The notes under the pieces: generated by a model
The model's input: the letters and a program-made list of their open reading frames with translations, nothing else
Databases searched by the model: none
What the model was told of the DNA's origin: nothing
From: Gongronella butleri
Lineage: Eukaryota; Mucoromycota; Mucoromycetes; Mucorales; Cunninghamellaceae
DNA: 64,000 nucleotides
Assembly: GCA_025201375.1 (NCBI GenBank)
Contig: JAIWZP010000006.1
Coordinates: forward strand, 682,001-746,000
Direction of reading: 5' to 3'
Shown here: positions 12,060-62,679 of the stretch, piece by piece
How the letters are laid out: each line of letters begins with the position of its first letter
Position numbering within the stretch: the first letter of the stretch is position 1
Made by a program: the position numbers and the translations under genes

Positions 12060-12350
12060 GTTTTTAAAATGATTCCCATGATCTTGCCGGGCTGAGCGTA
12101 TGATACGTATGATACCACAAGAGTGGGCTCGCCGATCGCTGGTACTTCAAAGCTTGCAAACACTGGTGGACCTCCAAAACAGAAATACTGTACGTATGAT
12201 ACTGTACATAAAAAAACTGGGTCTTTAGAAATCCGCCAAACTTGCACACAAGATGAAGCGCTCGGAGAAAAACCACAAAAAAAAAAAAAAAGAGTGGGAT
12301 TCATCTATCATATGATAGTGGTTGACGAGCAATGGGTGATAAACCGAGCA
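12060..12350 (-). repeat. Dispersed repeat, segment C, reverse copy carrying a TACTGTA insertion
   Basis: Read on the minus strand it matches 29040-29230 and 62230-62400: CATTGCTCGTCAAC (12318-12331), then a CAAGTTTGG block, a GACCCA/AGTTTTTT block and CCAAAAC. Between CCAAAACAGAAA and AAAAAAACTGGGTC it carries about 23 extra bases made of two TACTGTAC motifs that the other copies lack. Confidence 0.7.
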
Positions 12351-12378
12351 ATGGGTGATAAACCGAGCAATGGGTGAC
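12327..12378. repeat. Tandem repeat, 19-bp unit, 2.7 copies
   Basis: The unit GAGCAATGGGTGATAAACC occurs at 12327-12345 and 12346-12364 without change, and its first 13 nt recur from 12365. Confidence 0.9.
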
Positions 12379-12589
12379 TTTGGTTTATCATAAACTTAAT
12401 ACGTGATTTGCGCAACAGAAACGTCTCTTGAAGCGAACACTGACGCGTCCATTAGCAAGAGACGACCCAGATGCATGTATTCGAAGAAGAACGAACGCGC
12501 GTAACTCGAAGTCTGACGCGCTTTTTCACGCGACAAACTTTTGTCTTTTTGTTTTCGCCCATTCTGTTGAAGCTCCCCCCTTTTTCCAC

Positions 12590-12639
12590 GGATCACCGGT
12601 GTCAAAGAACGCGCTAGATCATGCTCTTTCCGGTGATCC
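12590..12639. repeat. Perfect 10-bp inverted repeat (possible hairpin)
   Basis: GGATCACCGG at 12590-12599 and CCGGTGATCC at 12630-12639 are exact reverse complements with a 30-nt loop. It is isolated in non-coding DNA, with no T-run or gene next to it. Confidence 0.7.
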
Positions 12640-13533
12640 CTATTTCCAGGCTCTGTAACCAATTTTCGTCGAGATGACCTCGAAAGCCTCAAACGCAGAA
12701 AATTGCATTTTCTTTCCCCGAAACCAGTCAATGGATCGTTTTTTTTTATTGCATTTTTGACGGTGAATGCTGGGTGTTTACCACGATTGAATAGATTGGC
12801 GATCTGAGGACCTGGATTTCTCCACTTCGAATTCTTCGATTGTATGATACCCCTTGGCAAATTCGTGGTTTCGGAACAACGTCCCTGCGCGCCATCCAAT
12901 GATCGCGGCAGTGCATGGGTGGGCTCATTTGAACGAGGACTGGCCGGAGCACGATTTCAATGAACGAATTTCCTTGCAGCTTGTAAATCCATCAATGAAC
13001 GGCCACAAACCTTTAAAAATGGCCCAATATGATATTAATTTTCTCGACAAATCCTTGATCAGGGGCCATTTATGTTCACATCATGCGGCGACCAGAACCT
13101 CAATACATCTGTTGTAAATCGAAAAATGTGTGTCAGTCCAAGTTTCGATCGACAAAAGTCCCTTCAACGCGAGAACGAGTCAATTCACATGTTGCAACTG
13201 GCGTTTCCTTTGATTCGATCTCTTGTCAATTCTGCATCCTTTGTCCCTCATGACCCGCAATCGTCCTGCACAATGGTACGGGATAGTCGCCAGGTGAAGA
13301 ATCCTTGAAATCCTCAAAAAAACACAAAATTCTCATCGATGATCCTCTCTCTTTATGTTTTTTTTTCATCTGAGCTTCGTGTCGCACCCCCCACCACCGC
13401 ACGTTCACGGACAATTGATATCAAAAAAATAAGACGAGACGCGGGGCGTACGATGGGCGTCGGCAGCGCGTTTTTTTCTCGAATTTTAGTGTGTTTGGGA
13501 TATACATGGCTACAGTATATTTACAAGTAGGAA

Positions 13534-27220: not shown

Positions 27221-29400
27221 CCACGAAATATTTCAAGAGCCACAGCTGAATTTGTGAAAATATCGATATTTTGAATTCATCTGAACAACAACTCGATCGA
27301 CTCCTGGTTTGAAAGTCTTGTAAAAAAGAGACGCGCATCGATGTAAATAACCTAATTTGAAGCTTTTTGGCAAACCAGCTATGAAATTCTTTATGTATAA
27401 AATGTCGACATTTCGAATTCATCTGCACAACTATCCAGTAAACTTCACTTTCTCAACGTCTTGTTGACACGAGGCGCGGCGAATAGGCAAAAGGCAAAGG
27501 CCGGGAGGCAATCGAATCAAGAGATATGTTGATCATCATTGGATTGCGATAATTCTTGAAAACGGTGCATACCTCGAAAACGGCCTGATCAACCTCTGGT
27601 TTTTTAATTTTTTATTCAAAGAGAGACGTTGCAATCAATAGCCAAGTGGCAAAGTTTGGCGATAATCGAATCATGATTTTACCGCGAAATGAATTTTACA
27701 AAAACGCGCTACAGCCAAATTTTCAACAATGTCGTGCTTCCCGACAAACCACATGATTGACCTTTGGTTTTTTATTTTTTTCTGAGAAGAGAGAGGCAAC
27801 ATCCACTACATGTAAAAGTTTCGTGGCGCTGCGACAAGTACTTGGTGACGAATTTTTTTTTAAATTTGGGGGAAAAAAAGGTGGGTCCGGTCAAAATGCA
27901 TCTGGAGTGTCCCCCCGCTTGAGAGGGTCAGGCTCAGACAAACATCTCAAATCCGTTTGGCAACCTACACGTTGGAGATCTGAGAGTCATTTCATTAGAT
28001 GCATTGATCCCATCTTTCTAAGCAAATCTGCAATAAAAATCGGGGGTCGATCGAGTCGTTGTCGAGGAAAGTGCAATCAAAGCCAGATTTTAGAAAAACA
28101 AATTTCGCCGTCAGTTTTGGTCGTACGCTGGTGAAACTGGGTTCACCCGACAGAGAATCGAATTTTACATCTACCATATGGTCACAGTTGCACGCCGTCC
28201 TTTGTCTTGTCCATTGTCGAGAAAAATGAAGTTGAAATGTTTGATTGGGCGGTGCAAGTGTACATGTGTTGTCCATCGATGCTGCCGGGCTGGTACAAAA
28301 TGATACCCTTGCATGCCTCTTGCCACTTGTAATATTTTAGCGTAATCGAATAAGAAACTGACGCGCTAGAGACAAAATAGTGAATTTACGCTGGAACGTC
28401 GATTTTCTCGTCAACGGTCCGATTGACCCCCGGTTTTTACTTTTGCCCTGAAAAGAGAGGGGATAAAGTGACCACATGTCAAAGTTTTGTGGAGCTGGGA
28501 GCACTCGATGGTGCCCCATGTCAAATTGAAAAAAGCACGATTTCCCATCGATTTCCAAAGGGGTACAGTCACGGATTTTTAATCAGTAAAAATCAGGTCC
28601 TCGGAGCGCCGCGACATTCAACCACATGGCGGAATGCACTCATTTAACAATGAAAATGCAATAAAACCCAGAGCTCCATTGACTGGGCTTCGCGAGAAAT
28701 GCAATTTGCTTCGTATTTTCGTCACAAGGCTAGCTCGACGAAAACTGGCCGCAGATTCACAAAACATAGCTCATCAGAAAGAGCACGATCTGTTGCGTAC
28801 GTGACCATTGATGATCACTTCAAAAATCGAATTCCGACGGAATCGGTGCGAACAATTTATTTGCGGGGCAACTTGGACGCGTGTAAAACCACGTCAGACT
28901 TTGATTTAGGCGCGCCTGTTTCTAGTCAAATCCATGCATCTGGGGCCTCTCTTGTTAGTGGACGCGTCGGGCGCGGCTCCAAGAACGCGTTTCCGCGCGC
29001 CATTCGTCAACAAAGCTTATTCTACAACCATGAATTGCTTGCCAACCAGCAGGCCAATCTCACACTTTTTTTTTTTTTTTTTTTTTTGGTAATTTCGTGG
29101 TTTCTCCGTGCGCAGCCTGTTGTGTGCAAGTTTGGAGGAATTCTGGAGACCCATTTTTTCGTTTTTGGTTTTGGAGCTCTGAGATGGCTACTTTTTGATT
29201 TGCGCTTTGCGCGCCACCAGGGGGTTTGTGCGGCTGTAATTCGGGATTTCTTGCTTGCCGTTTCACGTAAAGAGCACGTCCTGGGTCTTGGCGTTGCCCG
29301 ATTAATCATTTACATATTGCAATGGCTAAGATTCGTAAAATGTCAATTTTACTCGACACGTGAAGACGCGATGCCCAGATCTTTTACTGTTTTTATGCCA
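27200..29400 (+). repeat. Dispersed repeat, segments B and C, copy 1
   Basis: Aligns with 60400-62480. Shared blocks: AAGGCGCGGCGAA-like (27472 / 60674), GACCTTTGGTTTTTTATT (27759 / 60959), CCGTTTGGCAACCTACAC (27953 / 61158), GTAATATTTTAGCGTAATCG (28329 / 61529) and GAATTCTGGAGAC (29138 / 62321). Within B the motif GACC-CTGGTTTT recurs at about 27594, 27763 and 28426, multiples of about 166-169 bp, so B looks built from the same kind of monomer as the array at 24-25.8 kb. A 244-residue open frame at 28699-29433 is not conserved in the other copy. Confidence 0.75.
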
Positions 29401-39943: not shown

Positions 39944-40942
39944 ATGCCTTCCCGCTTGTTCACGCCCACCAAGATCCCCTTTTCACCGGCGAATGCCTAT
40001 TTTAAGGAAGGCACCGTGGCCCTGCGCGCCTATTGGCTGCAGCGCGACCATCAAGGCGATTCACTCGTCATTCAGCAAGAAGCCGCCGCCCTGGCAGAGT
40101 AAAAACACCCCTCATGGCCTTCTTGGTTCGTTTTGCTCACCCTAGTCGCTTAGATCATATACACCAGAGCCAATTTATTGCCAACTTGCAACCTGTGTTC
40201 AGAAAAACAGGCACCAGCCCGTTTCGTTCCCGTCCGTCACCGCATACGAGCTGCACTACGAGACACACCACCGCCACACTTGCTCAGCATGCAATCGCAC
40301 CTTTCCCAATCAGCGATGGCTTCAATTGCACTGTGACGAGCTACACAACACGCTCAACAAGATTAAAAAAGATCGTGGCGACAAAATTGTAAGCGAAAAA
40401 CCTCAATTAAAAATGCTGTGCTCAATTTCCCCCCCTTCATCCAGTATGCCTGTTTTGTCGAAGACTGCGGCAAATACTTCAAGGAGCCACGGACGCGCCG
40501 GTTGCATCTGATTGACAAGCACAAATACCCGTCTTTTTTCCCATTTCGCATTGTTGTCACGGGCACCATCGCGTACGAGGAGCAGCGACAATACTATACG
40601 CGCCAGCGCCACCGGCGGCACCAAAACCAACTTGACACAAAGACCATGGACCTCGATCCGCCTCGCAGTGCTTCGCATGACGCGTCAGATGACGAAAATC
40701 GCGATCACGACGGCGCGACAGACGGCATTGAACGCGGCAATGATCCATCGCACACAACCACGAGCAAGAATGACGCGTCGTCGTCGTTGGGCCACGCGGA
40801 CAACGACATGGAAATAGATGCACTCGCGTCACAACTGTCGCGCGTGCGCCTGCCACCATCCATCTCCTTTGGCCGACGTAAAAAAGCCATGTGGCACGCT
40901 CCTCACGCCCCGTCGCGCCCGAAAATGGACACCGACCCATGA
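39944..40942 (+). CDS. ZNF511-like C2H2 zinc-finger protein
   Basis: Exons 39944-40098, 40154-40388 and 40445-40942 give 295 residues. Order of elements as in ZNF511: FKEGTVALRAYWLQRD start, a first finger-like block with CQLATC and YELHYETHH, a second finger (HTCSACNRTFPNQRWLQLHC, ELH), and after the last intron a third (YACFVEDCGKYFKEP, RRLHLIDKHKYP) ending in the KYPSFFPF box. The acceptor at 40153 was preferred over the TAG at 40145 because only it opens the zinc-finger frame. The tail is acidic and unstructured. The function of this conserved eukaryotic family is little known; a nuclear role is likely. Confidence 0.85.
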
Positions 40943-41035
40943 CGTGACGAAAAAAAAGGAAAAAAAATCCCACGAAAAACAATAAAAATCGTACGATACC
41001 CTCTTTTTTCCTATTTAATCATTCATTGATGCGTG

Positions 41036-41894
41036 TCAGAGTCGTTGGTGCTGGTCCTGTACAACGCGCATGAGCTGCCTCATGGCGGTCTGATCGCCGT
41101 AGCCGGCACGTCGATCGAGCCAAAAGCGGCCGGGCTTGGAATGTGGATGTTTCGCCATGTATTGCGGCGAGCATGTCCACGTGAGCAGCGACCGTGTCGA
41201 TGGCCGCAAATCGCGCAATTGCAGCGTGGTCGTGCGCGTGCGCGCCAAAATGTCCGTGGTGTCGATGCTGATTGTTGTGTTTGGCGTGATGGGCGCCAAC
41301 ACCGACGCGTCTGCCGCGTCACGCGTGCTATTGGTGGTATCGAGGATGCTCTGCTTGGGCGTGTGGAGATGGATGCGGCTAATGAACGGCGACAACAGGT
41401 AGTGGAGCGACCCTGTTGACACGGCACTGCATGCCAATGCTGAATAAAGCAATTGCAGCACAACGAACCGCGTCGTCGATTCTGAACACGTTAATTGCCA
41501 TCATTAAAAAAAAAGAAGAAAGCGACGCGCGCATGCAGTTCTTCTTACCTGCCAAAAACATCGATTCCTGCACACCGGCTGCTTGCACTATTTTTTTTAA
41601 AAAAGAAAAATCAGCTTTTGAACCCTTTTTGCCGCATTTCGTGCCCCTCTCATGCGCTGCCCCGAGAACCAACCTGCGGGCGAGTCCCAAAAGTACATGA
41701 GTGCCGGTGTCGACACGGACGAGATCTACACGAGAAATTAACAAAAGCAACTTTTTAACTAAAACTTGGTGAATTGGCGGCCTTGGCAAGCTTACGCCCA
41801 AGGTGGACACCGAAAATAGCTTGGCGAGCTTGACGAGCAAGGCGTTTGGCGTCGTGTATATGAGCTTCAAGGGAGCCGCTGCTGGTGGAACCAT
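41036..41894 (-). CDS. TMEM70/TMEM186-like mitochondrial inner-membrane protein
   Basis: Exons 41894-41796, 41725-41674, 41587-41549 and 41481-41036 join in phase to 211 residues. The start of the fold LIYTTPNALLVKLAKLFSVSTLG and two hydrophobic hairpin segments (ISSVSTPALMYFW and FVVLQLLYSALACSAV) resemble the TMEM70 family pattern: IYxxPLxxxVKxxKxFSLxT, two transmembrane helices, then a matrix tail. TMEM70 helps assemble the ATP synthase c-ring and complex I. Upstream in other frames lies MRTLSSRIKGFGAPRG, which looks like a mitochondrial presequence, but I could not splice it in frame, so the true start may lie upstream. Assignment is by pattern only. Confidence 0.6.
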
Positions 41895-43668
41895 GGAATG
41901 GAAAGAAAAACAAAGTTTAGCAGATGACGGCGCCTATCCACCCTTGAATCTTGTCTTTCAAGCCCCGCGGCGCGCCAAAACCCTTTATCCTGCTCGACAG
42001 AGTGCGCATTTATTATAAATACAGGAAAGATGGAAGAGATTGGGGATGCAAAAGTGAAAAAAGAGAGAGAAAAAATGAAAAAAAAAGAAGAGGGGATATC
42101 ATCGGATGGGGGGAAACATGGCAACGTGGGGTGTATGTGTGTCTGAGGTTGGTGCGGAGTGGGGCAAAAGGTCGATTACATGACGGTGCAGCATTTCCAT
42201 TTACTGTTCAACGGCGTGAATGGATCTTCTTTGACATGACCCCAGACAGATGGCAGTAGAGGATCTTGTGTCGCTTGACAATAATCAATCAATCTGTATT
42301 GAACAATGGACTGTGAGACAAGATGACACTTTTTGTTTTCTTTTTTTCTCTTTTTTATTTGATTTGGGCGTACGATTGAGCCGCTTGACTGACAGGCACA
42401 CGCGTGGTGTCAAGGTGCATCTTGAGATTTTGATTCTGTGTCAAGAGACGACGCAGCTTAAATTCGGCCAATTCTTCGCGTGTCCGGCGTGTCATCGTTT
42501 CCCTAGTCATCGTTTTTTAAAAAAAAGAAAGAAAGCAAAAAGAAGGAGGAAAAGGAACCAGACCTCGAAATTTTTTTTCCTTTGCATGCGCTACTTTCTT
42601 GGTCGTGACCATCTTGTGTCACAATTACACTGCATTTGGTTTGGCCCCCAGTTGCAACTCCCCAACTGGGCATCAGACGCGTATCATGTGATGAAGGACC
42701 AAGATCTATTGTTCTCCCCCTTTTTGCTCTTTTTTTTTTTTTTTTTGCCAAAAAAGCACTGCCATGCGTCTCGGTGGCGTCCCACCGGCGTAATGGCCAT
42801 AAGGCCAGATGCCATATCTAATTTGAGTGCTTGCCGTGGCGTGCTGTTCACCCAGAGCAACACACTTTTTTGACAGAGGAGCTGGAAATGCTGTTTTTGA
42901 TTATTTGATCTGAATTGAACTGGACAAACTTCATTGGGCGACGCGTCAAAAAGTAGCGAATGGCCTTCGAATATCTTTTGGAGCAGATCAGTCCGTAATT
43001 TACCTCGATTGTGCAAGGTGCTAATATGCGACGTTGCCGATTTTTCGCGCAAAATAATAGAAAACCGAATTTCTGGTCATTGGCTGGGCCCAAACTCGCG
43101 CATGAGGGTCATTTACGCCTAGTTTGACAGTAAAAATGGAATATAGAAGCATGGTTTACCAGTTTAAATCTGCACGAGGCGCAATTGAAGATTTTTTTTC
43201 TCGGTTCCAACTAGTTTGACGAAAGCACACTGTAAAAAGAGCTTGCAGGCACCTATGCAAGGCTCTACACGAAGTACTACTACATTGCTACGAAAAACCA
43301 ACATTGCCGCGCTCTAGTCCATCGTACAGAGGGTTTGCCTGCAGCCAATGGAGGGGTATGTCACTTTTTCCATTGGCGGCGTGGAGAACATTATAACAGT
43401 GAGAACAAAAAAAATGATAAAATGTGCCATCACGCCACTTTTTATTTTCTTACGCACAGGGTGGCCGCGCACCCAGTTGTACGACGTCACGCACGCATAT
43501 TTCGTTGATTTTAGGGTGGTCCACAAAAGAAATTGGATAATACAACAACAAAATTACTTTTTTTTTTAATTTACAGTGAGGAGAGAGAGAGAAACACAAC
43601 CGGTATTTACATGAGTGATGAGCTAGCATAGACACTGGAAGGATAAAAAAACAACAGACCAAACAAAT
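41895..43668. other. Gene-free region, about 1.8 kb
   Basis: Between the TMEM70-like gene start and the 3' end of the YL1 gene. Open frames (for example 42250-42873) are broken by poly-T/poly-A and match nothing. The stretch 43080-43240 (ACAGTAAAAATGGAATA and flanks) faintly recalls the dispersed repeats but was not aligned firmly. Confidence 0.55.
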
Positions 43669-44861
43669 TTAGGCCTTTACTTTGCGTGTGCCGCGCTTGG
43701 GTTTAGGTTTTGGCGCGTCAATTGCATGTTTTGGCGACTCTTTGTCTGCTTCAGTCATGATGGTGTCTTCTGGTGGCGTGGCAGGCGTGGGTCCGTTCCG
43801 GATCAATGTGGCCCAATTGGCGGGGACGCCGTGTGCGCCGTTTGCGTCTGTTTCTTGGTGATGCGTGTACACGCCATGTGCCGGTGACCACGTGTACTTG
43901 TTGCGTGTGAGGTCCTTGAGCGTGGCATACGCGTGTACGTCGTGGTAGGGTATCTTTGTGACAGGATCTCTGTATTTTGCGGGTTTGCCGGTGAGTGGGC
44001 ATAGGATGGGCTGCACAGGGCGCGGCGGGCGATGTGCCCAGACGGCCAGCGACGGGATCAGGTCCAATTGGTCGAGTTGTTGATCCGACAGGCCGGCCGT
44101 GTCGATTTGCTTTGTCGGATGTGGGTGATCGTCAGATTTGTCGAGTGGGGGTAGCCCATTTGTGAAAAAGGTGATCAAATTGCGAGCCTGCATCTCGCCG
44201 GTGCGATTGGAGTGGAACGGCGCTTCCATGGCGGCGTCAATGTCATTCATTTCCGTGGCGGTGTTTTTGCCGTGGGCGTCGTCAGAGATGAGGATCATGC
44301 GACGCTCCTTTGGCCGCTCGGAGCCTTCGGTGAACGAGTGGAATCGCACAACAGGGCCTTCAATCTGCTTCTTCACCTTGACCTTGGCCTTGGATTGTCG
44401 TTCTTCCTCCAGACGCTGCCATTGCTCCAAAGAAGCACGATTTTCTTCCTCGGTCACTGCCGCTTCTGCAAGCAGCTCCTCTTGCGTCAATCGCTCCACC
44501 ACTCGCTTCGCCCGCTTCGGCTGCTGCGCCTAATAAATATTGGGGGGAGGGGATTTTGAAAAAAAAAGAGATTGTTTATTTCACTTGTGACCGTGTCCTC
44601 ATGCGGCGCACCCGCAAACGTGGCGCTTTCCTGACCTTGCGTTCTTTCTCTTGTCGGAGCTGTGCTTGCACCGCCATTCGATTCAGCATCGTCTGCGCGC
44701 GCAGAGACTGTCTGCTGCCGCTGAATTCCGCAGGTGGCGCAGCCTCAGGCGCGGTTCGTGTTGATGATTCCGTACGTTTCGGTGTCTTTTTGGGTTTGGG
44801 TGCTGCCGGCTTTTTGATTTTGCCTGCTGCCACAGGCGCTGCTTTGGACGGGCCGCGGCGA

Positions 44862-44908
<47 letters not shown>

Positions 44909-45371
44909 AAGTGTGAATGGGAGTCCAATTGAGGGTTCAATGGATCGTTTTGAATCAAAAATCCAGTTTTACCTCACGTTCTTGGCGCTGGATCTGCTTT
45001 TCCTCTGCAGCTGCCTGACGCGCGTGCTCCTCCTCGCCCTCGGAGGCCTCCATATCAAAGTCAGAATCTAGGGTATCCGGTGCCTCGCCTGCATAAACGT
45101 CAAATTCAAGGAAAACACGTGTCGTGAGCAACTTTTTATCATTTCTGCGCGTCTTTTTCTATCATTCTCGTTCGGACCTTCGTCGGTGAACTCTTCGTCA
45201 TCTGATTCATCGTCAAATAGCTCCTCCATGTCAATTTCTTTGTCGATGAGCGCTTGCATTCTAAAAAAAAAAAAGGGCCCGGCTTGAGCGCTTTCTACGG
45301 GGGTCAGCGCATGTTCCTCTTTACCTGTTGCCAGCATTGGCACGCCGCGAGCGTTGAAGAGCAAACGACAT
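43669..45371 (-). CDS. YL1/Swc2 (VPS72) subunit of the SWR1-type chromatin remodeller
   Basis: Exons 45371-45325, 45260-45178, 45088-44973, 44863-44636 and 44529-43669 give 444 residues. The N-terminus MSFALQRSRRANAGNRM and the acidic block EELFDDESDDEEFTDEG form the H2A.Z-H2B binding region. A coiled, Gln/Glu/Lys-rich middle and a VKKQIEGPVVRFHS motif follow. The C-terminal YL1_C motif is CPLTGKPAKYRDPVTKIPYH. YL1/Swc2 recognises nucleosome-free DNA and H2A.Z for SWR1/SRCAP. Intron 2 uses a weak GTCCGA donor, required by phase. Intron 3 ends in a 36-nt homopolymer that reads as poly(A) just before AAG. Confidence 0.92.
44865..44900. repeat. Poly(T) homopolymer, 36 nt, in a YL1/Swc2 intron
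   Basis: On the coding (minus) strand this is poly(A) ending in the acceptor AG of exon 4, so the branch-acceptor region has no polypyrimidine tract. Confidence 0.9.
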
Positions 45372-45674
45372 GTCAGTGGTGATTTGGGGGGGGGGAAGAA
45401 AAAAAGAGTGAGAAAAAGAGAGAAAAATAAAAAAAGGGAAATGAGGAGGTGCACGACAGTCAAAAAGAGGGCTCCTTTTTTATGTTTTTTTTTCGTGTCT
45501 CATAATTCGCCGACCGCCCGTGCACGCGCTCTTTCCTTGCCAAATCATTTTCTTTCTTTCTTTCTTTTCAAACCAAACATAAGCAATCTAAATTCTGCTA
45601 CCATTTATAATGCGAGTCTATGATGCCATACAATGGATCGTTTATTTATTTATTATATTAAGATTTAAAAGGGG
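45372..45674. other. Intergenic region (YL1 start / HTH protein stop)
   Basis: About 300 nt with purine-rich DNA above the YL1 start and AT-rich DNA towards the stop of the HTH gene. Nothing else seen. Confidence 0.55.
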
Positions 45675-46979
45675 TCAAATCAGAACGACAAAGGGGATCT
45701 CGTCCAAAAAAGTAATGTTCTTATGCGTGATGGCACTAGTGATTGCGTCCCTGTGTTTTTCTCTGGGAGGCAAATTGAGTCGTATTCTCGTCTTGTTGAC
45801 GGTCGTGGAAGAGACACCACAAAATTTGGCTATTTTACGATGGCTCATGTCTGTATTCATAAGGAGATGCGCGATGTCGTCCCTTTTTTCAGACGTCAGG
45901 CTCCAGGGACGGCCGTCATTGTTCTCGCGCTGCGTCTTCTTTTGCACCTGGTACTCCATTGTGTTTCTCTTGACGCCCGTGGCAGCCACTACCTGACTAA
46001 CCGTCATGCCTTGCATAAGGAGCTGCTTGATCTCACTTTGTAGCATCGGATCACAGCGTCGGCGAATCCGCCCTGGAAGCTTGTCGATGCCGTACTTGTG
46101 GAAGACCTTGGTTGCGTTGTTCAGCGAGACATCGGCCGCCTCTGCGGCCTTGGCGACGGTCGCGCCCTTAAGGAGAAGCTTTCTGATCTGTTCCGTCTTT
46201 GCAGGGGTCAGCGGGCGATTGAAGCGCCTGGGGATCGCCTCGGGGATTTGGTGGTGCGCGCGTCGTCTTGTCACCGTGGCGGCCGAAACACCCGTGATCT
46301 TGACAATTTCTTTGGATGGCACGCCTTGCTTCAGTAGACGATGGATGAGCTGGCCCGTCTCAGCGCTGACGGTCGGCTTTAGGCAAGGGATGTTGAGCTT
46401 ATTGCGAGTGTGGTAGACAGTGTGGACGCTGACATTGCATTCTTTTGCAATTTCCACCATTGGCTTTTCTGTCATGAGAAGAAGTTCCTTGACTTTATCC
46501 TTGGCCTCCTTGCTGTATCTGGTGCTGGTGCTGGTCACGACATTGCCTATTTTCTTCTTCATTTTCACCACGGTTGCTGTGCAGACATTGCATGCCTTGG
46601 CGATCGCAATTGATGACATGCCATCAAGCACCAGCCTTTTGATCTTGTCGTCCTTGTATTGCTTCAATTTGTCCATGGCAATCACATATTTCTTGCGCTC
46701 CCGACCAAGCTGTTTCGCAGACAAGCCAACCAGAGGTGCAATGCTTTCGATCGACATGCCGCTGAAAAAGAGGTCCCTGATTTTTTTCTCTGTCTGTGCG
46801 TCGACACCAGCGCCAGAAACGCCTTTTTGCGGAAACAATTGTTCAGTGAGGATGTCGAGCACCTCGTCCCTGGTGATCTGACAGGTCTCCGCCACAGTGG
46901 ATATGTCCTCTCCACTTTCAAGAAGTGTCTTAACCTCTGCATACTTGAGACGTGCAGCGGTCATGGTGTCTCGGCCCAT
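45675..46979 (-). CDS. Protein of eight tandem helix-turn-helix units, function unknown
   Basis: Single exon, 434 residues from the ATG at 46979 (MGRDTMTAARLKY), chosen because the frame upstream translates a poly-A tract. It consists of eight repeats of about 50 residues, at about 7-50, 59-101, 105-148, 153-200, 203-245, 257-300, 309-350 and 359-403. Each follows the plan K-I-x-x-L-L-x-x-G-x(2-4)-A/I-x-x-x-G/N-V-S-x-x-T-V-x-x-x-R-x-K, for example IHRLLKQGVPSKEIVKITGV and IRKLLLKGATVAKAAEAADV. This is the trihelical HTH fold of Hin-type recombinases and transposase N-termini. No recombinase, DDE or other catalytic domain is present. It probably wraps a long DNA site. Neighbours have introns and this gene has none. 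I know no named family with eight such units. Confidence 0.8.
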   Translation of the reverse strand: MGRDTMTAARLKYAEVKTLLESGEDISTVAETCQITRDEVLDILTEQLFPQKGVSGAGVDAQTEKKIRDLFFSGMSIESIAPLVGLSAKQLGRERKKYVIAMDKLKQYKDDKIKRLVLDGMSSIAIAKACNVCTATVVKMKKKIGNVVTSTSTRYSKEAKDKVKELLLMTEKPMVEIAKECNVSVHTVYHTRNKLNIPCLKPTVSAETGQLIHRLLKQGVPSKEIVKITGVSAATVTRRRAHHQIPEAIPRRFNRPLTPAKTEQIRKLLLKGATVAKAAEAADVSLNNATKVFHKYGIDKLPGRIRRRCDPMLQSEIKQLLMQGMTVSQVVAATGVKRNTMEYQVQKKTQRENNDGRPWSLTSEKRDDIAHLLMNTDMSHRKIAKFCGVSSTTVNKTRIRLNLPPREKHRDAITSAITHKNITFLDEIPFVVLI

Positions 46980-47096
46980 GTTGACATGAATGAACAAAAC
47001 AAAAAAAAAAAAAAAAGAAGCGCAGCGCGCCCTTGAACAATTGCCTTTTGAATTGATTTCAGTCTCCGCAGGACGCGAAACGCGCCGAGCGCTTGA

Positions 47097-47315
47097 ATGG
47101 ATATTGATGGAGAAGCATCTGGAGGTAACAATGGCAGCGGCAGTCAATTTTTGGCTTTTGACACGTCCGTGCCCGACCAAATCGCGTCCGCGATGGAGAT
47201 CAAGCACCCTTTTCAAACGGCGGGACACGCGCCGTCCAAAAAGGCTCCAGCCAAGTCCGCCATGCGCTCAAACAGATCCACCGTATCAGCCAAGCGCGTC
47301 AGATTTTTCGGATAA
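47097..47315 (+). CDS. Small protein with RVxF-like PP1-docking motif (uncertain gene)
   Basis: An open frame of 72 residues, MDIDGEASGGNNGSG..., starts 118 bp from the divergent HTH gene. Residues 45-72 are basic (SKKAPAKSAMRSNR) and end in AKRVRFFG; KRVRF fits the RVxF motif by which regulators bind protein phosphatase 1. The stop follows at once. Just before it, another frame opens and stays open to 47592 with strongly coding-like Ser/Thr/Gln composition, so the gene may continue after a frameshift or an intron I could not place. No homologue recognised. Confidence 0.4.
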   Translation: MDIDGEASGGNNGSGSQFLAFDTSVPDQIASAMEIKHPFQTAGHAPSKKAPAKSAMRSNRSTVSAKRVRFFG

Positions 47316-47592
47316 TGCATCCGATTCGCCATTGACAGCGTCCTCATCGAAATCGATCGCCTCGTCGTCCAAATTAGACGAATCTCATACCAAGTCATCC
47401 ACGTCTCAAGCCAAATCGACAGCAGCTGCCTCCCAGTCCCAATTGAACGCGTGTCCATCTCATTCAACCGCGTCGTTGTCCATATCGACCACTCCTCAGC
47501 ACGATTCAAGCGCGTCTTCTCCCAATACCGGCGCATTTCAAGCCAACCCGAGCTCAAGTCAAGACCAGTCATCCACGACAACTGGTTCCTAA
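47285..47592 (+). other. Ser/Thr-rich open frame, possible continuation of the preceding gene
   Basis: In the frame +1 relative to the RVxF ORF, from about 47285, the DNA encodes a low-complexity Ser/Thr/Ala/Gln stretch (SDFSDNASDSPLTASSSKSI and on) stopping at 47590-47592. The wobble bias looks coding. No splice pair joining the two frames was found. Confidence 0.3.
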
Positions 47593-47922
47593 AATCCTCC
47601 TGGCTATACTATCCACGACAATCCACGCAACACCATGACGGCCTTGATCCTGTTCGTACTTTGAAGCATTTTTAACCCAAATTCGTAAATTGAGCCTTCC
47701 TCTTTTGCTTCTTCTCCCCCCTCCCCCATCGTCTGTCTAGCATGTCACACGCTCTTCATTGAGTTCGAATAAAAAAAAAAATAAGCGCAATTGCGCCCGA
47801 TTCAGAGAAAAATTAAGAATTGACAAATATGTGCCATCCGACAGTGCCAAAATGAAAAAATGGGCGTCGTCCGCATATTCCAACAAAATAAAGTGATAAT
47901 TTATGGATTTAATGTCCGTTGC
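47593..47922. other. Intergenic, convergent with AFI1; no gene seen
   Basis: 330 nt between the end of the Ser-rich frame and the AFI1 stop. An A run near 47771 and AT-rich DNA suggest poly(A) signals. Confidence 0.5.
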
Positions 47923-50600
47923 TTAGGCGCCCACAGCTACGGAACGCGCCAATGTCTCTGACAGGCGGTCAAAGGTCATTTTATGGTATCTTGACAAGCT
48001 TTGCACGAAGCGACGGCCCGTCTACATGGAAAATAAAGAGAAATGAGATCGTCCGTGCGCAGAATCAGGGCAAAAGCACGCCATTCTTACCGGATTGCGA
48101 TCCAGTCGCTGGAACAATTCCACTGTATATTGCCTAACAATAAACGAGGAGTGGAAGAGGCCAACGGCCAAGGGACTTAGGCCTCCATGCTGTTGTGGCA
48201 GATACGAGAGAAACTTTAAAAAGAAGCGGCGCATGAGCCGGCGTCCAAGAAGCACGCATTTTTCTTATTTTTCGTTCATTTTTTTTCTTTTTCTTGGGAC
48301 CTACCTCGATGATTTGGCGCTCGGTGACCACGTTGTTGAGGAATGCCTCGTAAATGACGAGGACCTCCTTCTCGGGCAGGTTGCGAAGCAATTTCAGCTT
48401 GGCGACCTGGCGATGGATGTCGACATTTTTGAGGCTGGATTGCTGGCGCCATTGTACGAAATCCTGTAAATGCAAATATACCCCACCATTGAAAAGAAAT
48501 AAGCTTTTTTGATCCATTCTTTTGGATCGCAGGTTTCAGATTGCCAATGTATCAGCAATAACACGTACCTTTTGATAATAATTGTACGACAACGATTGTC
48601 GCCAACCTTCAAATCTGCCAGCATTGGCGAGCAACTCGCGTTGTTTGGTGGCCTCGTCCGGTAAAACGTAGCCAATGCCTAGCAAGCCAGTCGGATCGGC
48701 GTCTTGGTCGCGGGGCCATTCAGTCTTTGTCTCTTGGTACACGCTTTCCTCATATTGGGACGCCAACCGCACAAAGCGGTACACATAATCTTGGAATTTT
48801 GCACGAATGGCCGTCTCGCCATAGTGTGCCTGGATCGCTTGCAGCACCTGCAATAAACAAAAAAAAAAAGACACGATGAGACCATGGCGAGAGTCGTGAT
48901 GCGATGCAATGGCGTCTTACATCATTCATAAATTCAGTGTCATAGTCCTTGCTCGACTTGTCGTCAGAGCGAGACGCCGAGCTGGCGGATGCACCCGTTG
49001 CGCGGCTGATGGATCGCGCCGCAAAGCCGTCTTCAAAGTAGCCAAGCGATGTTTTGCGATTGCCAGCGCCGACCGTGTTCTGGATGTCCTTGCTGACCGT
49101 GATTTTGCCCGTTTCAATATTGCACAGAATATCCCACCACGCCGTGTGTTCCTCGTATGTTGGGTTTGTCACGCCAGCAATGAATCCAGGACTGACGCGT
49201 ATAAAAAAAAAAGAGTCAGACGCGCGCAATTCGATTTTTTTCTCCATTTCTCCATTTTTTTTACCACTGCAGCAGGTCGTCGACGCTTGAGAGATTGGTG
49301 TAGGGGAATGCACGCTCTGTGAATCCGCGCAAGACGGTGCCGGATCCGCTGCCCATGGCACAGGCCGCGAGGACGTAATTGGCGACCTCGCCGGACGGAT
49401 GACCATAGCCGAGAAACACGATGCGCTTTTGTGTCAGCAGGCCATTGAGCAGGATCATGATAGGGTGCGTCGACGCGCCGGGCGAATCAAGGTGTGGATG
49501 ATGTGGATTTGCGCTGCTAGCCTGATTCTGCGGCGCAAACGTCGTGATCAGCTTGATCAATGAGAACTAGGATGAAAAAAAAATGAGCCCATGATGCCCA
49601 ACCGCAGCAATAAAAAATAACTTACATCGCCGACTTCCTCGTCATTCATGGTCAATGGCACGCGAATGGGCAGCTTGATGCCGTCGTAGACAATCTTTGT
49701 TTCGTAAAAATGTCTGTCCTTGCCGCCGAGGGACGTGAGCAGCTTTTGTTGGCCCGACGTGAGGTCGATAAAGGTCCCACGGCGCAGCAGGTGCTTTTGA
49801 TCGATTGTCTGCTGCTCGTACGACGCGTCGTCCGCTGCAGGCGACTCGGGTTCCTCCATTTGGAACATCTCCTCAAACATGGACTTGTCGTCCGTCGCAC
49901 GGAGCACCTGTCGCTCGTGCCAGCTCAGCAATGGCATCTTGCTCAGATCCATCGCGTTCACAGCCTCGTACAGCGACACGAGCACGTCCTTGGATGGCGT
50001 TTGAAAGTACTTTTCCATCGCAAGCAGCAGCGCAGGCTAAAAAAAAAAGGGGGAGAAAAAGTGTGAATTTAGTGTGCGTTGCCTTTTTTCTCGATTTTTT
50101 ACCTTGTAAATGTGGAGAAAGCGATGCTGAGTACAAATGGCCATTGCTTTGACATGCGCACCTCTATGCAAAAAAAGACGTAAAATAAGAGATCAGCATC
50201 TTTTTGGGTCTTTTTGTGCCATTGAGTAATTTTTACCGTCTTGCGCTGGCGTCGTGTTGCGTGCGGACCAAATTGAGGACATAGAGCAATGGCTTGTCCT
50301 TGTCGGACCGCTCAATTTGCTTTTCGTTGGTCATATCCGGGATCATCTGGTTTAAATAAAAAATGGTCCAGTCCTCGGACCGCAAGTGCGCGCCATCGGG
50401 CAACATGAGCTCGGAAAGCACACTGTAGCAGTAAAGAGGGACGTCAGGTGGGTAGGACGGGGTCATCAAGAGGCCAATTATTATTACCTTTCATCGGTGC
50501 CTGTGTCCTTTGGGTATTGATACGCCAGCGAGGCGCCTTTATCAATGTTGAATTCTGCCAGCAGAATGAATTGGACGTGCTGCTGTGCGCCGTCTGTCAT
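47923..50600 (-). CDS. Afi1-like Arf3-interacting protein (DENN-related, polarity/vesicle traffic)
   Basis: Ten exons, 50600-50488, 50422-50237, 50163-50103, 50036-49626, 49566-49265, 49191-48921, 48847-48569, 48463-48305, 48213-48091 and 48021-47923, join in phase to 667 residues. The N-terminal Afi1 domain reads [51 protein letters not shown] and [15 protein letters not shown]. The DENN-like core has [36 protein letters not shown] and [16 protein letters not shown]. The end carries TGRRFVQSL. In yeast Afi1 binds the GTPase Arf3 at the plasma membrane and helps set polarised distribution. Every splice join keeps the family reading frame, including [14 protein letters not shown] across an intron. 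Confidence 0.93.
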
Positions 50601-51578
50601 CGTAACGTCGTTTGGGGGGAGGAAAAAGGACGGGCGGGTGCAAGGAGAGCGAGCAAAAGGGAGCAAAACGACAAAAAAAGGGGGGGAGGAAACTAATTTG
50701 GGCGTCATGAAATTCCAGCACTTTGGGTGGCCTGTGTAACATCACCAGTATGATCCTTGGGTTGCCAGGGAAAGTTGTCCCGACGCGCTATGGTCCATCT
50801 TTTTGCCTTTTTTCCACGCTGTATTTTGTGTTTTTCTTTTTAGTTTTGCTTTTAATAATGGTCATTGGGATGCTTTTTTTTTAAATGAATTTCATAGAAT
50901 AGCCTAGGCACGGGACGCGACAATGAAGCAATTCCCGCTGGATCCATAAAAGGTGATTCTTGCCTCCGTCTAGAGCGCGCGATCCATGGCTTTTCATCAA
51001 GTTGAAAGCTTGTCTCATCGTGAATTGATTAATCTCATTGTTGTACACCCCCCTTGGGCGTGATTTTTTGCTCGGCGCGGTGTCGCCTACCACATTAAAA
51101 AAGAAAAAAGACACAGCCTGGAGCACTGGTTCCCTCATTTGTCGTCAATTTGTAAATCTCGTCAGATTTGATGCTAAACCTAAAGATGCAGTGGCATTGG
51201 CGATCGTGTCATGGTATTTCAACCTTCTGTGGCTCGACAAGTGAGGTGGTGCAGTCTCAGAAAGGCAACGTCAAGAGCGGGGCGGGGAAATTATCGGCTG
51301 TCAATGACAACCTGAACGGGGACACAAGGAATGCGGCTTGAAATCCGCCACCAATTCTATTCTATTCTTCGTCGTAGACTCACTAATTCTCCCACATTAT
51401 ACCTTGAATAGCAACGGGGGAGACGTACCCGTGCTCATTGCTCTGCAATTTTCGTCACAAGCTCTCTCTTTATTTTTTTTAATCTCTTTTCACTCTTTCT
51501 CTCTCTCTCTCTCTTTTTTTTTTATTCTGTTTCATCCTTAAAAATAATCTCTATTAGACTGGCCAGAGTCTTTGCGCA
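50601..51578. other. Divergent intergenic region (AFI1 / NoxR), no gene seen
   Basis: Nearly 1 kb containing both promoters. No supported open frame. A CT-rich stretch (51460-51540) lies just upstream of the NoxR-like start. Confidence 0.55.
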
Positions 51579-51962
51579 ATGGATATTAAAGTACATGTTC
51601 CCTGTTTTGGTGTAATTCACTTGACTGACGCGCATTTTTTGTCTTTTTTTTTTTTACCATCTTTCCAGCGTGAATTTCGGCGCTGGCAACTTGCCTGCAA
51701 TGCACTCAGCAACAATGAATACCAGCAAGCCTTGGGCGCCTTTTCGGTAAGCGGAATGACCGCGACTTTGGAACGTCCAGACGCGTTAATTGAAAATCTC
51801 ACTTTTTTCGTGCCAACGTCGTCCATGATTATAGGCTTGCCAGTCAAGTGCCAAGCTACACTTTAACATGGGCATGATACACGCCATCCTTGGCCAGTAC
51901 AGGCACGCTGTAAGTTAAAAAAAAAACTTTTGTTGCAAAAAAATCGCGCGGAACTGACAGGC

Positions 51963-52006
<44 letters not shown>

Positions 52007-60399: not shown

Positions 60400-62480
60400 G
60401 GTGCCAATTTCACCGTGATCCAGTATTTTGAGAGACCGTCGTGCTGGATTTGTGGAAATGTCAAGATTTTGGATTCATCTGCACAATAACCCAACTCCTG
60501 GTTTGAACGTCTTGTCAAAAAGAGAGACCTAATCTACAGTAATGTGACGATTTTGGGCGATCCAACATTAATGTCTTGTGGTGTTTAATTCTGTTTTTGT
60601 AAAAATATCGAGATATTGAATTCATCTGCACAACGATCCGATCGACCTCTGGTTTTCAACGTCTTGTTGAAACAAGGCGCGGCGAAACAGTCAAAAGCAA
60701 AGGTTGGGAGGCGATCGAACCACGAGTTGTGTTGGTCATCATTGAATTTGCGGCAATTCTTAAAAACAGCGCATTTCTCGAAAGCGGCCTGATCAACCTC
60801 TGTTTTTTAATTTTTCCTTCAAAGAGAGTCGTTGAAATAGTCAAGTGGCAAAGTTTGGCGATGATCGAATAATGATTTTACCGTGAAATAATTTTTACAA
60901 AAACGTGCTTCAGCCAAATTTTCAGCAATGTCGTGGTTCCGGACAAACCAACTGATTGACCTTTGGTTTTTTATTTTTTTCTGAAAAGAGAGGGGCAACA
61001 TCCACCACATGAATAAGTTTCGTGGCGCTGTGATAAGTCCTTGGTGACGAAATGATTTTTTTTTAAATTTAGAAAAAAAAATGGGTGGGTCAGGACAAAA
61101 TCCATCTGGAGGGTCCCCCGCTTTGAGAGGTTCAGGCCCGGACAGATTTCTCAAATCCGTTTGGCAACCTACACACTGGCCATCTGAGAGTCATCTCATT
61201 AGATGCATTGACCCCCTCTTACTAAGCAAATCTGCTATAAAACTCGGAGGTTGATCAAGCCGTTGTCGAGAAATGAGCGATCAAAGCCAAATTTTAGAAA
61301 ATGAAATTTCTCACTCAGTTTTGATCGTACGCTGGTGAAAGTGGGTTAACCCGACAGAGAACCGAATCCTGCAACATTTGGTCACCGCATCACACTATCC
61401 TTTGTCTTGTCCATTGCTGAGAAAAATGAAGATGAAATGTTTGATTGGGTGTTGAAAGCGTGCAAAAGTTGCGCATTGGTGTTGCCGGGTAGGGACAAAA
61501 TAACGTCCTTGCGTGTCTCTTGCCACTTGTAATATTTTAGCGTAATCGAATAACAACTTGACGCCCCAGAGACAAAATTGTGAATTTACGAGGTAAAGTT
61601 GATTTGCTCGTCAACGGCCAGATCAATCCCCGGTTTTTATATTTGTTCTGAAAAGAGAGACGTAAAAATGCCTATGTGTCAAAGTTTCGTGCATCTGAAA
61701 GCTCTTGATGGCGCCCCATGTCGAATTGAAAAAGCACGATTTTCCACCGATTTTCCAAGGGGTACAGTCACGAATTTTAAACCGGTGAAAATTTGGTCCT
61801 TGGATCACCGCGACATTCAACCACAGGGTAGAACGCAGCAATTTACAGATGAAAAAGCAATAAAACCCAGGGCTCCATTGACCGGTTTCTGCGCAAAACG
61901 CAAAAAGTTGCGAATTTTCATCTCAAGGTGAACTCAACGAAAAATGCCTGCATCTCCGAGTAACACGCACCATCAGAAAGAGCAAGGCTCGCTGCGTACG
62001 CGGACATCAATGTTCAATGACAAAAGTGAATTTTTGGCATTTTTGACACGGTTTGAAAATCATTATAGTTTTTTGACGCGTGATAAAACGCGCCACGTCC
62101 GTGGTACACGCTCCTTGTCCGCTTGTAATTCATGCATCTGGTGCATATCTAACCAATGAATGTGCTAGTGGAGCTCTGTAGCACATTCTAGCGATGGGAT
62201 GCACCCGGAAAGAAAAATTTAAAATTGGCGATTGCTCGTCAACTGGCAGATGGATCGCCTTCGTTTTTGGCGTTTTCCGTCGTTTCTCCATGCCCTTGCT
62301 CTTATGGGAGAGTTTGGTGGAATTCTGGAGACTCATTTTTGGGATTTTGGCTTGGGGCGCCCGCAACGCTTGGATCTTGATTTGCGCGTGGCGCGCCCTA
62401 TTGGCGTTTGACAGCTGCAAAATAAAGCCACTGGTGGTTTCTAACTTGCATATCATGGCCGGGACGCGTTTCAGGGTGTA
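60400..62480 (+). repeat. Dispersed repeat, segments B and C, copy 2
   Basis: Colinear with 27200-29400 at an offset near 33.2 kb for most of its length (landmarks listed there), so the two copies are equally long and neither is heavily rearranged. They differ by scattered substitutions and short indels and share no reading frame. The island lacks segment A, whereas the copy at 26.1 kb has it. Confidence 0.75.
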
Positions 62481-62679
62481 TAGTGCGTGATTGCCAAGTG
62501 AAAACCTTGATTCGCCATTAAAATCACTGTATCGTCGAGGCTAGCGGATTAAAATAGTCCAAATGTTCTCAAAATTGATACCGTGCGTTGCTGGACATCG
62601 ATATCTGACGCTTGTGTCCTCAACACAACTTCATTTGCTATATGTTCTATGATCATGCCAGGCTATTTTTTATTATTAT

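Follow-up and report, generated by a model that had tools for sequence, protein, structure and literature searches.

Tandem helix-turn-helix arrays with a constant C-terminal tail: a candidate DNA-binding multigene family in Gongronella butleri

The window analyzed here is a stretch of 64,000 nucleotides (C67:682001-746000) from the genome of the soil fungus Gongronella butleri (Mucorales; 33.0 Mb in 110 contigs). Positions are given in window coordinates unless a contig handle precedes them. The gene studied is made up of one open frame of 434 codons, in agreement with an earlier note on this DNA that had described it as uninterrupted (Table 1). An ORF carrying a YL1_C domain (43672-44298, minus strand) adjoins it downstream in the same direction; this ORF is probably the 3' end of the VPS72/SWC2 gene. 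No clear terminal inverted repeats surround the array gene, as the 25 longest of the 74 inverted pairs are nearly all poly-T/poly-A. That the window copy might be a transposon remnant is not supported, given the open frame and the lack of clear flanking terminal repeats.

Table 1 Features of the window and of the related loci. Positions refer to the window unless a contig handle (C) is given
Feature	Position	Strand	Residues or content	Basis or remark
HTH-array protein coding sequence	45675..46979	(-)	434 aa	Single open frame, stop TGA; ORF listing, Pfam, leave-one-out profile
HTH unit 1	46836..46964	(-)	6-48	AlphaFold2 helices and leave-one-out profile
HTH unit 2	46689..46799	(-)	61-97	AlphaFold2 and leave-one-out profile (weakest unit: 6.6 bits)
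HTH unit 3	46536..46676	(-)	102-148	AlphaFold2 and leave-one-out profile
HTH unit 4	46398..46511	(-)	157-194	AlphaFold2 and leave-one-out profile
HTH unit 5	46251..46364	(-)	206-243	AlphaFold2 and leave-one-out profile
HTH unit 6	46092..46205	(-)	259-296	AlphaFold2 and leave-one-out profile
HTH unit 7	45918..46049	(-)	311-354	AlphaFold2 and leave-one-out profile
HTH unit 8	45780..45893	(-)	363-400	AlphaFold2 and leave-one-out profile
Constant C-terminal tail	45678..45719	(-)	421-434; NITFLDEIPFVVLI-COOH	Form common to 22 other ORFs
Overlapping AATAAA-type poly(A) signals	45641..45654	(-)		Just past the stop; read by eye
Dispersed-repeat copies in the window	12212-13019, 28551-29268, 61750-62493			blastn
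Uninterrupted family ORFs (24)	C1, C22, C31, C34 (2), C44 (3), C45 (3), C46, C52 (3), C54, C67 (6), C94, C99		C1: 11 units	C67 includes the window gene
Broken or remnant family loci	C34 710-712 kb, C44 108-109 kb, C45 692-694 kb, C46 131 kb, C52 225-227 kb, C78, C85, C93 (two), C99 20.6 kb, C100

The earlier note had read the protein as a row of eight HTH domains, and both the profile searches and the structure prediction bear this reading out. In Pfam, the best match is HTH_7 (1.1e-25, in six separate stretches), HTH_23, HTH_38 and others being matched as well. The 25 families listed out of 50 are mostly HTH types, and among these 25 there is no catalytic domain (DDE or resolvase), no Myb family, no C2H2 zinc finger and no KRAB domain. 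When the unit profile is derived from the remaining family members alone (leave-one-out), it recovers exactly eight units, at residues 15-40, 65-100, 111-145, 161-197, 212-245, 263-298, 316-342 and 373-403 (whole-protein E = 1.5e-56, in a search of this one sequence with filters off). None of 2000 shuffles of the protein, run with the HMMER default filters, contains a row of units. The AlphaFold2 model, based on a three-sequence alignment, has 24 helices that fall into eight triplets and cover residues 6-400. The ten-residue means of pLDDT are mostly 66-84 within the units and below 50 at residues 407-434, and the pTM of 0.21 implies that the mutual arrangement of the units is not predicted. 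A second family member, P0003, is also modelled with eight three-helix units.

An iterated unit profile, applied to the open frames of the matched loci, places the protein in a family with no fewer than 24 uninterrupted members, which have 4 to 11 units each and lie on 12 contigs; eight units are present in five of the 24. About 11 additional loci are broken or remnants, and with these the family extends to 16 contigs. All these totals are lower bounds, for the number of units counted varies with the threshold set for the profile, and only the best candidates are scored when the genome is searched. Searches of the same genome gave 41 matches with the window protein and 53, 35 and 24 with three further family proteins. 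Four ORFs with a single HTH were also matched. Two of them, C44:38382-39455 and C27:477918-478898, are Tc1-type transposase ORFs according to Pfam, and their HTH resembles the array units. The Pfam matches of the third, C2:450011, are all HTH-type families except for one N-terminal domain model; the fourth is C22:202757.

The earlier note had also held that the protein contains nothing besides its HTH domains. This proved wrong, as it ends in a strongly conserved tail of 14 residues that is shared with paralogues. The tail is found in 23 of the 26 near-intact ORFs, mostly as xIxFLDEIPF(C/V)(I/V)LI at the very C-terminus; at C34:310748 just its last eight residues retain the usual form. The three ORFs that lack it are a divergent open one (C45:617300) and two others, on C78 and C93, whose frames end before the tail. 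In pairwise comparisons among the 23 tailed ORFs (253 pairs), median identity is 0.71 in the tail versus 0.24 in the rest of the protein, the tail being the more conserved part in 252 pairs. The differences among tail codons (pS = 0.61, pN = 0.19) indicate a constraint on the protein. When the whole genome was searched with a degenerate DNA pattern representing the last eight residues of the tail and the stop, allowing up to two mismatches, 51 matches were obtained versus eight with the reversed control. Twenty of these matches are exact and eight have one mismatch, and 27 of these 28 fall at family genes, broken copies or remnants, the lone exception being C56:747737. Because the tail is short, is modelled without confident structure and is conserved while all else diverges, its sequence fits a docking peptide. 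Its residues fit the loose patterns of a SUMO-interacting motif, of an export signal or of an Atg8-binding core. A psi-K-x-E motif, which is SUMO-site-like, occurs 41-45 residues before the C-terminus in nine of the 13 uninterrupted CILI members (e.g. C44:105480) and in none of the ten members of the VVLI subfamily (last 90 residues).

Several loci show how the family grows. Five genes stand head to tail at C67:92972-99824 and match one another including their flanks, the third of them having one extra unit. The row at C52:219869-226781 comprises two open genes and one broken one, with gene and flanking repeat alternating. The gene at C1:580541-582379 has eleven units, of which neighbours are near-identical (self-matches of up to 87% over 813 bp), and has apparently undergone a recent duplication of units. 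A diverged dispersed repeat of ~700-950 bp is found genome-wide (1285 first-look candidates, 40 of them scored). Counted from coordinates, 12 family loci have a copy in the same orientation 313-600 bp downstream; for the broken C44 copy at 108 kb, the gene end used in this count was taken from the blastn alignment. Copies in the opposite orientation or upstream are present at C1, C45:956001, C54, C52:94707, the C67 cluster and C99. The twelve downstream repeats are most simply accounted for by the co-duplication of genes and their flanks. The repeat was considered as a shared element or target of the family and set aside, since it is genome-wide and its three copies in the window lie away from the gene.

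The paralogues were compared unit by unit on the 36 positions of the unit profile, in five sets of genes. Helix 3 opens with positions 24 and 25 (in unit 5 of the model, the helix at 233-243 starts at position 24), and HTH proteins usually contact bases through residues 1, 2, 5 and 6 of this helix. Positions 24 and 25 rank first and second in variability in the five-gene cluster of C67, in a trio from C94 and C52, in a six-gene set and in a four-gene set; the C1/C54 pair has position 24 tied first and position 25 tied third. Their comparison with the other non-core positions gives permutation p <= 0.0055 in all five sets, p-values that are not fully independent because positions 24, 25, 28 and 29 were picked after family-wide entropy. 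The six-gene set, made up of CILI members, shares genes with the trio and with the four-gene set, the four-gene set includes the open part of one broken copy, and the C1/C54 set consists of two genes. None of the five sets shows increased variability at exposed helix-1 positions (p >= 0.75); at exposed helix-2 positions, two sets show a slight increase (p = 0.03 and 0.046). Within the C67 cluster, the variability of the fifth and sixth helix-3 residues (positions 28 and 29) is ordinary (0.32 and 0.20), which leaves residues 1 and 2 as the ones that stand out there.

The array had been described in the earlier note as old and under selection. This agrees with the fast change of recognition-helix positions among paralogues and with the overall dN/dS of 0.33-0.51 (Nei-Gojobori counts) in the five paralogues of the C67 cluster (ten pairs), a set outside which the much more diverged window gene lies. 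At positions 24 and 25, dN/dS in this cluster is 1.01 when calculated locally and 1.25 (95% interval 0.74-1.95) against the gene-wide dS. The ratio is 0.96 (0.57-1.53) with position 28 added and 0.73 (0.44-1.13) with both 28 and 29; once positions 24, 25, 28 and 29 are left out, the rest of the unit gives 0.32 (0.24-0.41). Positive selection at the recognition positions is thus possible from these counts, but since their dN/dS is not above 1 with confidence, relaxed constraint is possible too. Contact residues would in any case vary in every HTH family with members of differing specificity. In the C67 cluster, unit 4 is nearly frozen, with a mean difference of 0.09 versus 0.22-0.34 in the other five units; some units therefore look fixed and others changing.

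Relatives were sought in protein, prokaryote and viral collections, G. butleri being the one fungal genome searched, and no relative bearing the tail was found outside this species. The window protein has no match at E <= 1 among 5.8 billion proteins (7996 candidates scored). A search with an alignment of 26 members, in which 7993 candidates were scored, retrieved at E <= 10 the metagenome protein P0002 and a single protein of G. butleri. The same search missed P0003 even though this protein is part of the alignment, so true members are lost when candidates are selected, and a missing match says little. P0002 has 501 residues and five HTH units and is devoid of such a tail. The tail region retrieved only its own gene from the large protein database (11 candidates); the other tailed members are absent from these matches and are thus probably not in that database. 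In viral contigs, the protein search produced six pattern stretches, none of which was confirmed. A tail pattern that is one residue longer, and stricter at one residue, has no exact match in prokaryote or viral contigs, and tblastn of the window protein found no relative in phages and plasmids. Foldseek gave no match at E <= 0.001 in the PDB and 25 at this threshold among viral models (12-25% identity, many unnamed), which serve as a lead only given the pTM of the query model. The unnamed viral proteins Q2XUW5, Q2XUW6, Q2XUW9, A0A141HSI2 and A0A141HSI3 are among the best of these matches. They form two accession groups, which may be HTH-array families of a virus; nothing was found in the literature on four of these accessions. 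No description of the fungal family was found among the matches listed in the open-licence literature, and the portions consulted of PMC10386755 and PMC4133162 contain nothing on it.

It seems likely, with a probability of about 0.62, that these genes constitute a modular DNA-binding multigene family in which arrays of changing specificity share one docking tail and which grows by tandem and unit duplication. By their predicted fold and their pattern of change, the units fit DNA binding. With its recognition helix, each three-helix unit would read a small number of base pairs, and an array of eight would read or cover one long composite site. If the array behaved like the archaeal protein Cbp1, whose repeat is roughly 24 bp long, each unit would account for ~8 bp. 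The constant tail would dock all members to one shared partner, the array providing the address and the tail the action, and the outcome could be the regulation of promoters or the repression of repeats and mobile elements. The family would expand by tandem gene duplication and single-unit duplication and lose copies as pseudogenes, with the recognition-helix residues free to change and the scaffold and the tail fixed.

Two scenarios share this mechanism and differ on the outcome only. One possibility, which we regard as credible if short of an even chance, is that the members are ordinary lineage-specific transcription factors. In that case, each array would address its own host genes, the tail would be a common activation or repression motif and no conflict with mobile DNA would be involved. 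The same data that suggest the modular family can be explained in this way, and the proximity of the window gene to the YL1_C-domain ORF speaks for it. So does the statement, in the part of PMC5415576 consulted, that fungal transcription factor sets have expanded mainly within the Zn clusters, C2H2-like fingers and homeodomain-like families. Nevertheless, in our judgement, the tandem clusters, the ~11 broken loci and the fast change of recognition residues suit a changing target better than stable promoters of the host. Alternatively, the family could be a KRAB-like defence against repeats or mobile elements, in which the arrays would recognize repeat families and the tail would recruit a silencer. 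The birth-and-death pattern, the tandem clusters and the fastest change at recognition residues would be congruent with this hypothesis, and the abundant dispersed repeat is a conceivable target. Yet the repeats beside the 12 family loci are better explained by co-duplication, blastn detects no repeat copy at 40001-52000 around the window gene, and we consider this defence role doubtful. Overall, the silencing of repeats or transposons is in our view no more likely than plain gene regulation. Rather unlikely is the complete scenario of a Mucoralean HTH counterpart of the KRAB zinc-finger system, which would combine arrays of 4-11 units, a DNA code in helix 3, C-terminal docking to a common silencing machine and an arms race with repeats.

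The remaining explanations depart from the modular family. The genes could be, or have been, the cargo of a mobile element with which they spread; their distribution over 16 contigs (counting broken loci), their single ORFs, their frequent position beside repeats and the resemblance of their units to the HTH of Tc1/IS630 transposases would be in line with such a history. It is nonetheless improbable, because catalytic domains are absent (from the 25 listed of 50 families for the window protein and from the full Pfam lists of the C1 and C99 members), clear terminal inverted repeats are missing at the window copy, neighbouring copies look like segmental tandem duplicates and the C67 cluster is under purifying selection. 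Least probable of all is a structural coat on one class of repeat (centromere, telomere or other), comparable to archaeal Cbp1 on CRISPR repeats: Cbp1 (NF040595) is the best NCBIfam match of the window protein (1.7e-15) and a Foldseek search of the PDB ranks the entry 2lvs, titled CRISPR repeat binding protein, second (E = 0.086), but the 57.1 bits of the NCBIfam match stay below the equivalog cut-off of 140, and the recognition residues differ among the compared paralogues, as would not be expected if all had a single structural target in common.

If the arrays of the modular family read DNA unit by unit, they would offer a natural library for working out an HTH recognition code; such codes have been worked out for zinc fingers and TALEs. 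The constancy of the tail over strongly diverged arrays points to one cofactor, which could be looked for in a single pull-down. Should this reading be true, an early-branching fungus would possess a clustered, fast-changing DNA-reading family, and the family does look like a home-made, evolvable DNA-reading toolkit.

The architecture of the window protein had appeared unfamiliar in the earlier note, an impression that holds only in part, since HTH-only arrays already exist with three units in Cbp1 and six or seven in ORF18 of Bacillus phage PM1. Cbp1 of the Sulfolobales resembles the fungal protein in its tandem HTH units derived from domain duplication. According to the sections consulted of PMC10883916, its three HTH domains are aligned 5' to 3' along the CRISPR repeat, and these sections mention neither a constant tail nor a large paralogue family, both of which exist in the fungus. 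Cbp1 is archaeal and has three units, whereas the fungal proteins have 4-11 (eight in the window protein). The PM1 protein (AB711120, 364 aa; L064:9461-10555) was reached from a Foldseek viral match and was equated with the entry listed there because the lengths agree (364 aa). Like the fungal protein, it is a row of HTH units and little else, with six stretches detected by the fungal unit profile (several of them marginal) and seven by eye. In contrast to the fungal protein, it is a phage protein annotated as hypothetical, lacks such a tail and matches the unit profile weakly.

The KRAB zinc-finger proteins share with the fungal family a variable DNA-reading array joined to a constant part, an organization in clusters and fast-changing DNA-contact residues. 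Positive selection is stated for their zinc-finger array in the part consulted of PMC5363842; in the fungal family, an excess over neutrality is possible only. The fungal units are HTH and not C2H2 domains, and the constant part is a C-terminal peptide of 14 residues and not a KRAB domain. Thus, the likeness, drawn by analogy, is one of logic and not of parts, and the fungal family is not a member of that group. Transposases of the Tc1/mariner and IS630 groups carry an HTH unit of the same kind (HTH_23, HTH_7), and it is possible that a Tc1-type HTH was the source of the array unit. The Tc1-type ORFs of this genome have, however, one HTH followed by Tc3_2, with DDE_3 in addition in the C44 ORF, and both domains are absent from the lists of the array proteins (for the window protein, 25 listed of 50 families). 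Myb-repeat proteins, SNAPc and Reb1 resemble the fungal arrays as eukaryotic proteins with tandem three-helix units, and their entries appear in Foldseek, none of them at E <= 0.001. Pipsqueak proteins also have such tandem units, and all four types have fewer of them. Myb repeats are characterized by conserved tryptophans, which are missing from the consensus of the array units. HTH-only arrays are therefore not unique to this fungus, and the family, for which DNA binding is predicted, may be filed among the tandem-HTH DNA-binding proteins as a large group of eukaryotic members whose tail stays constant.
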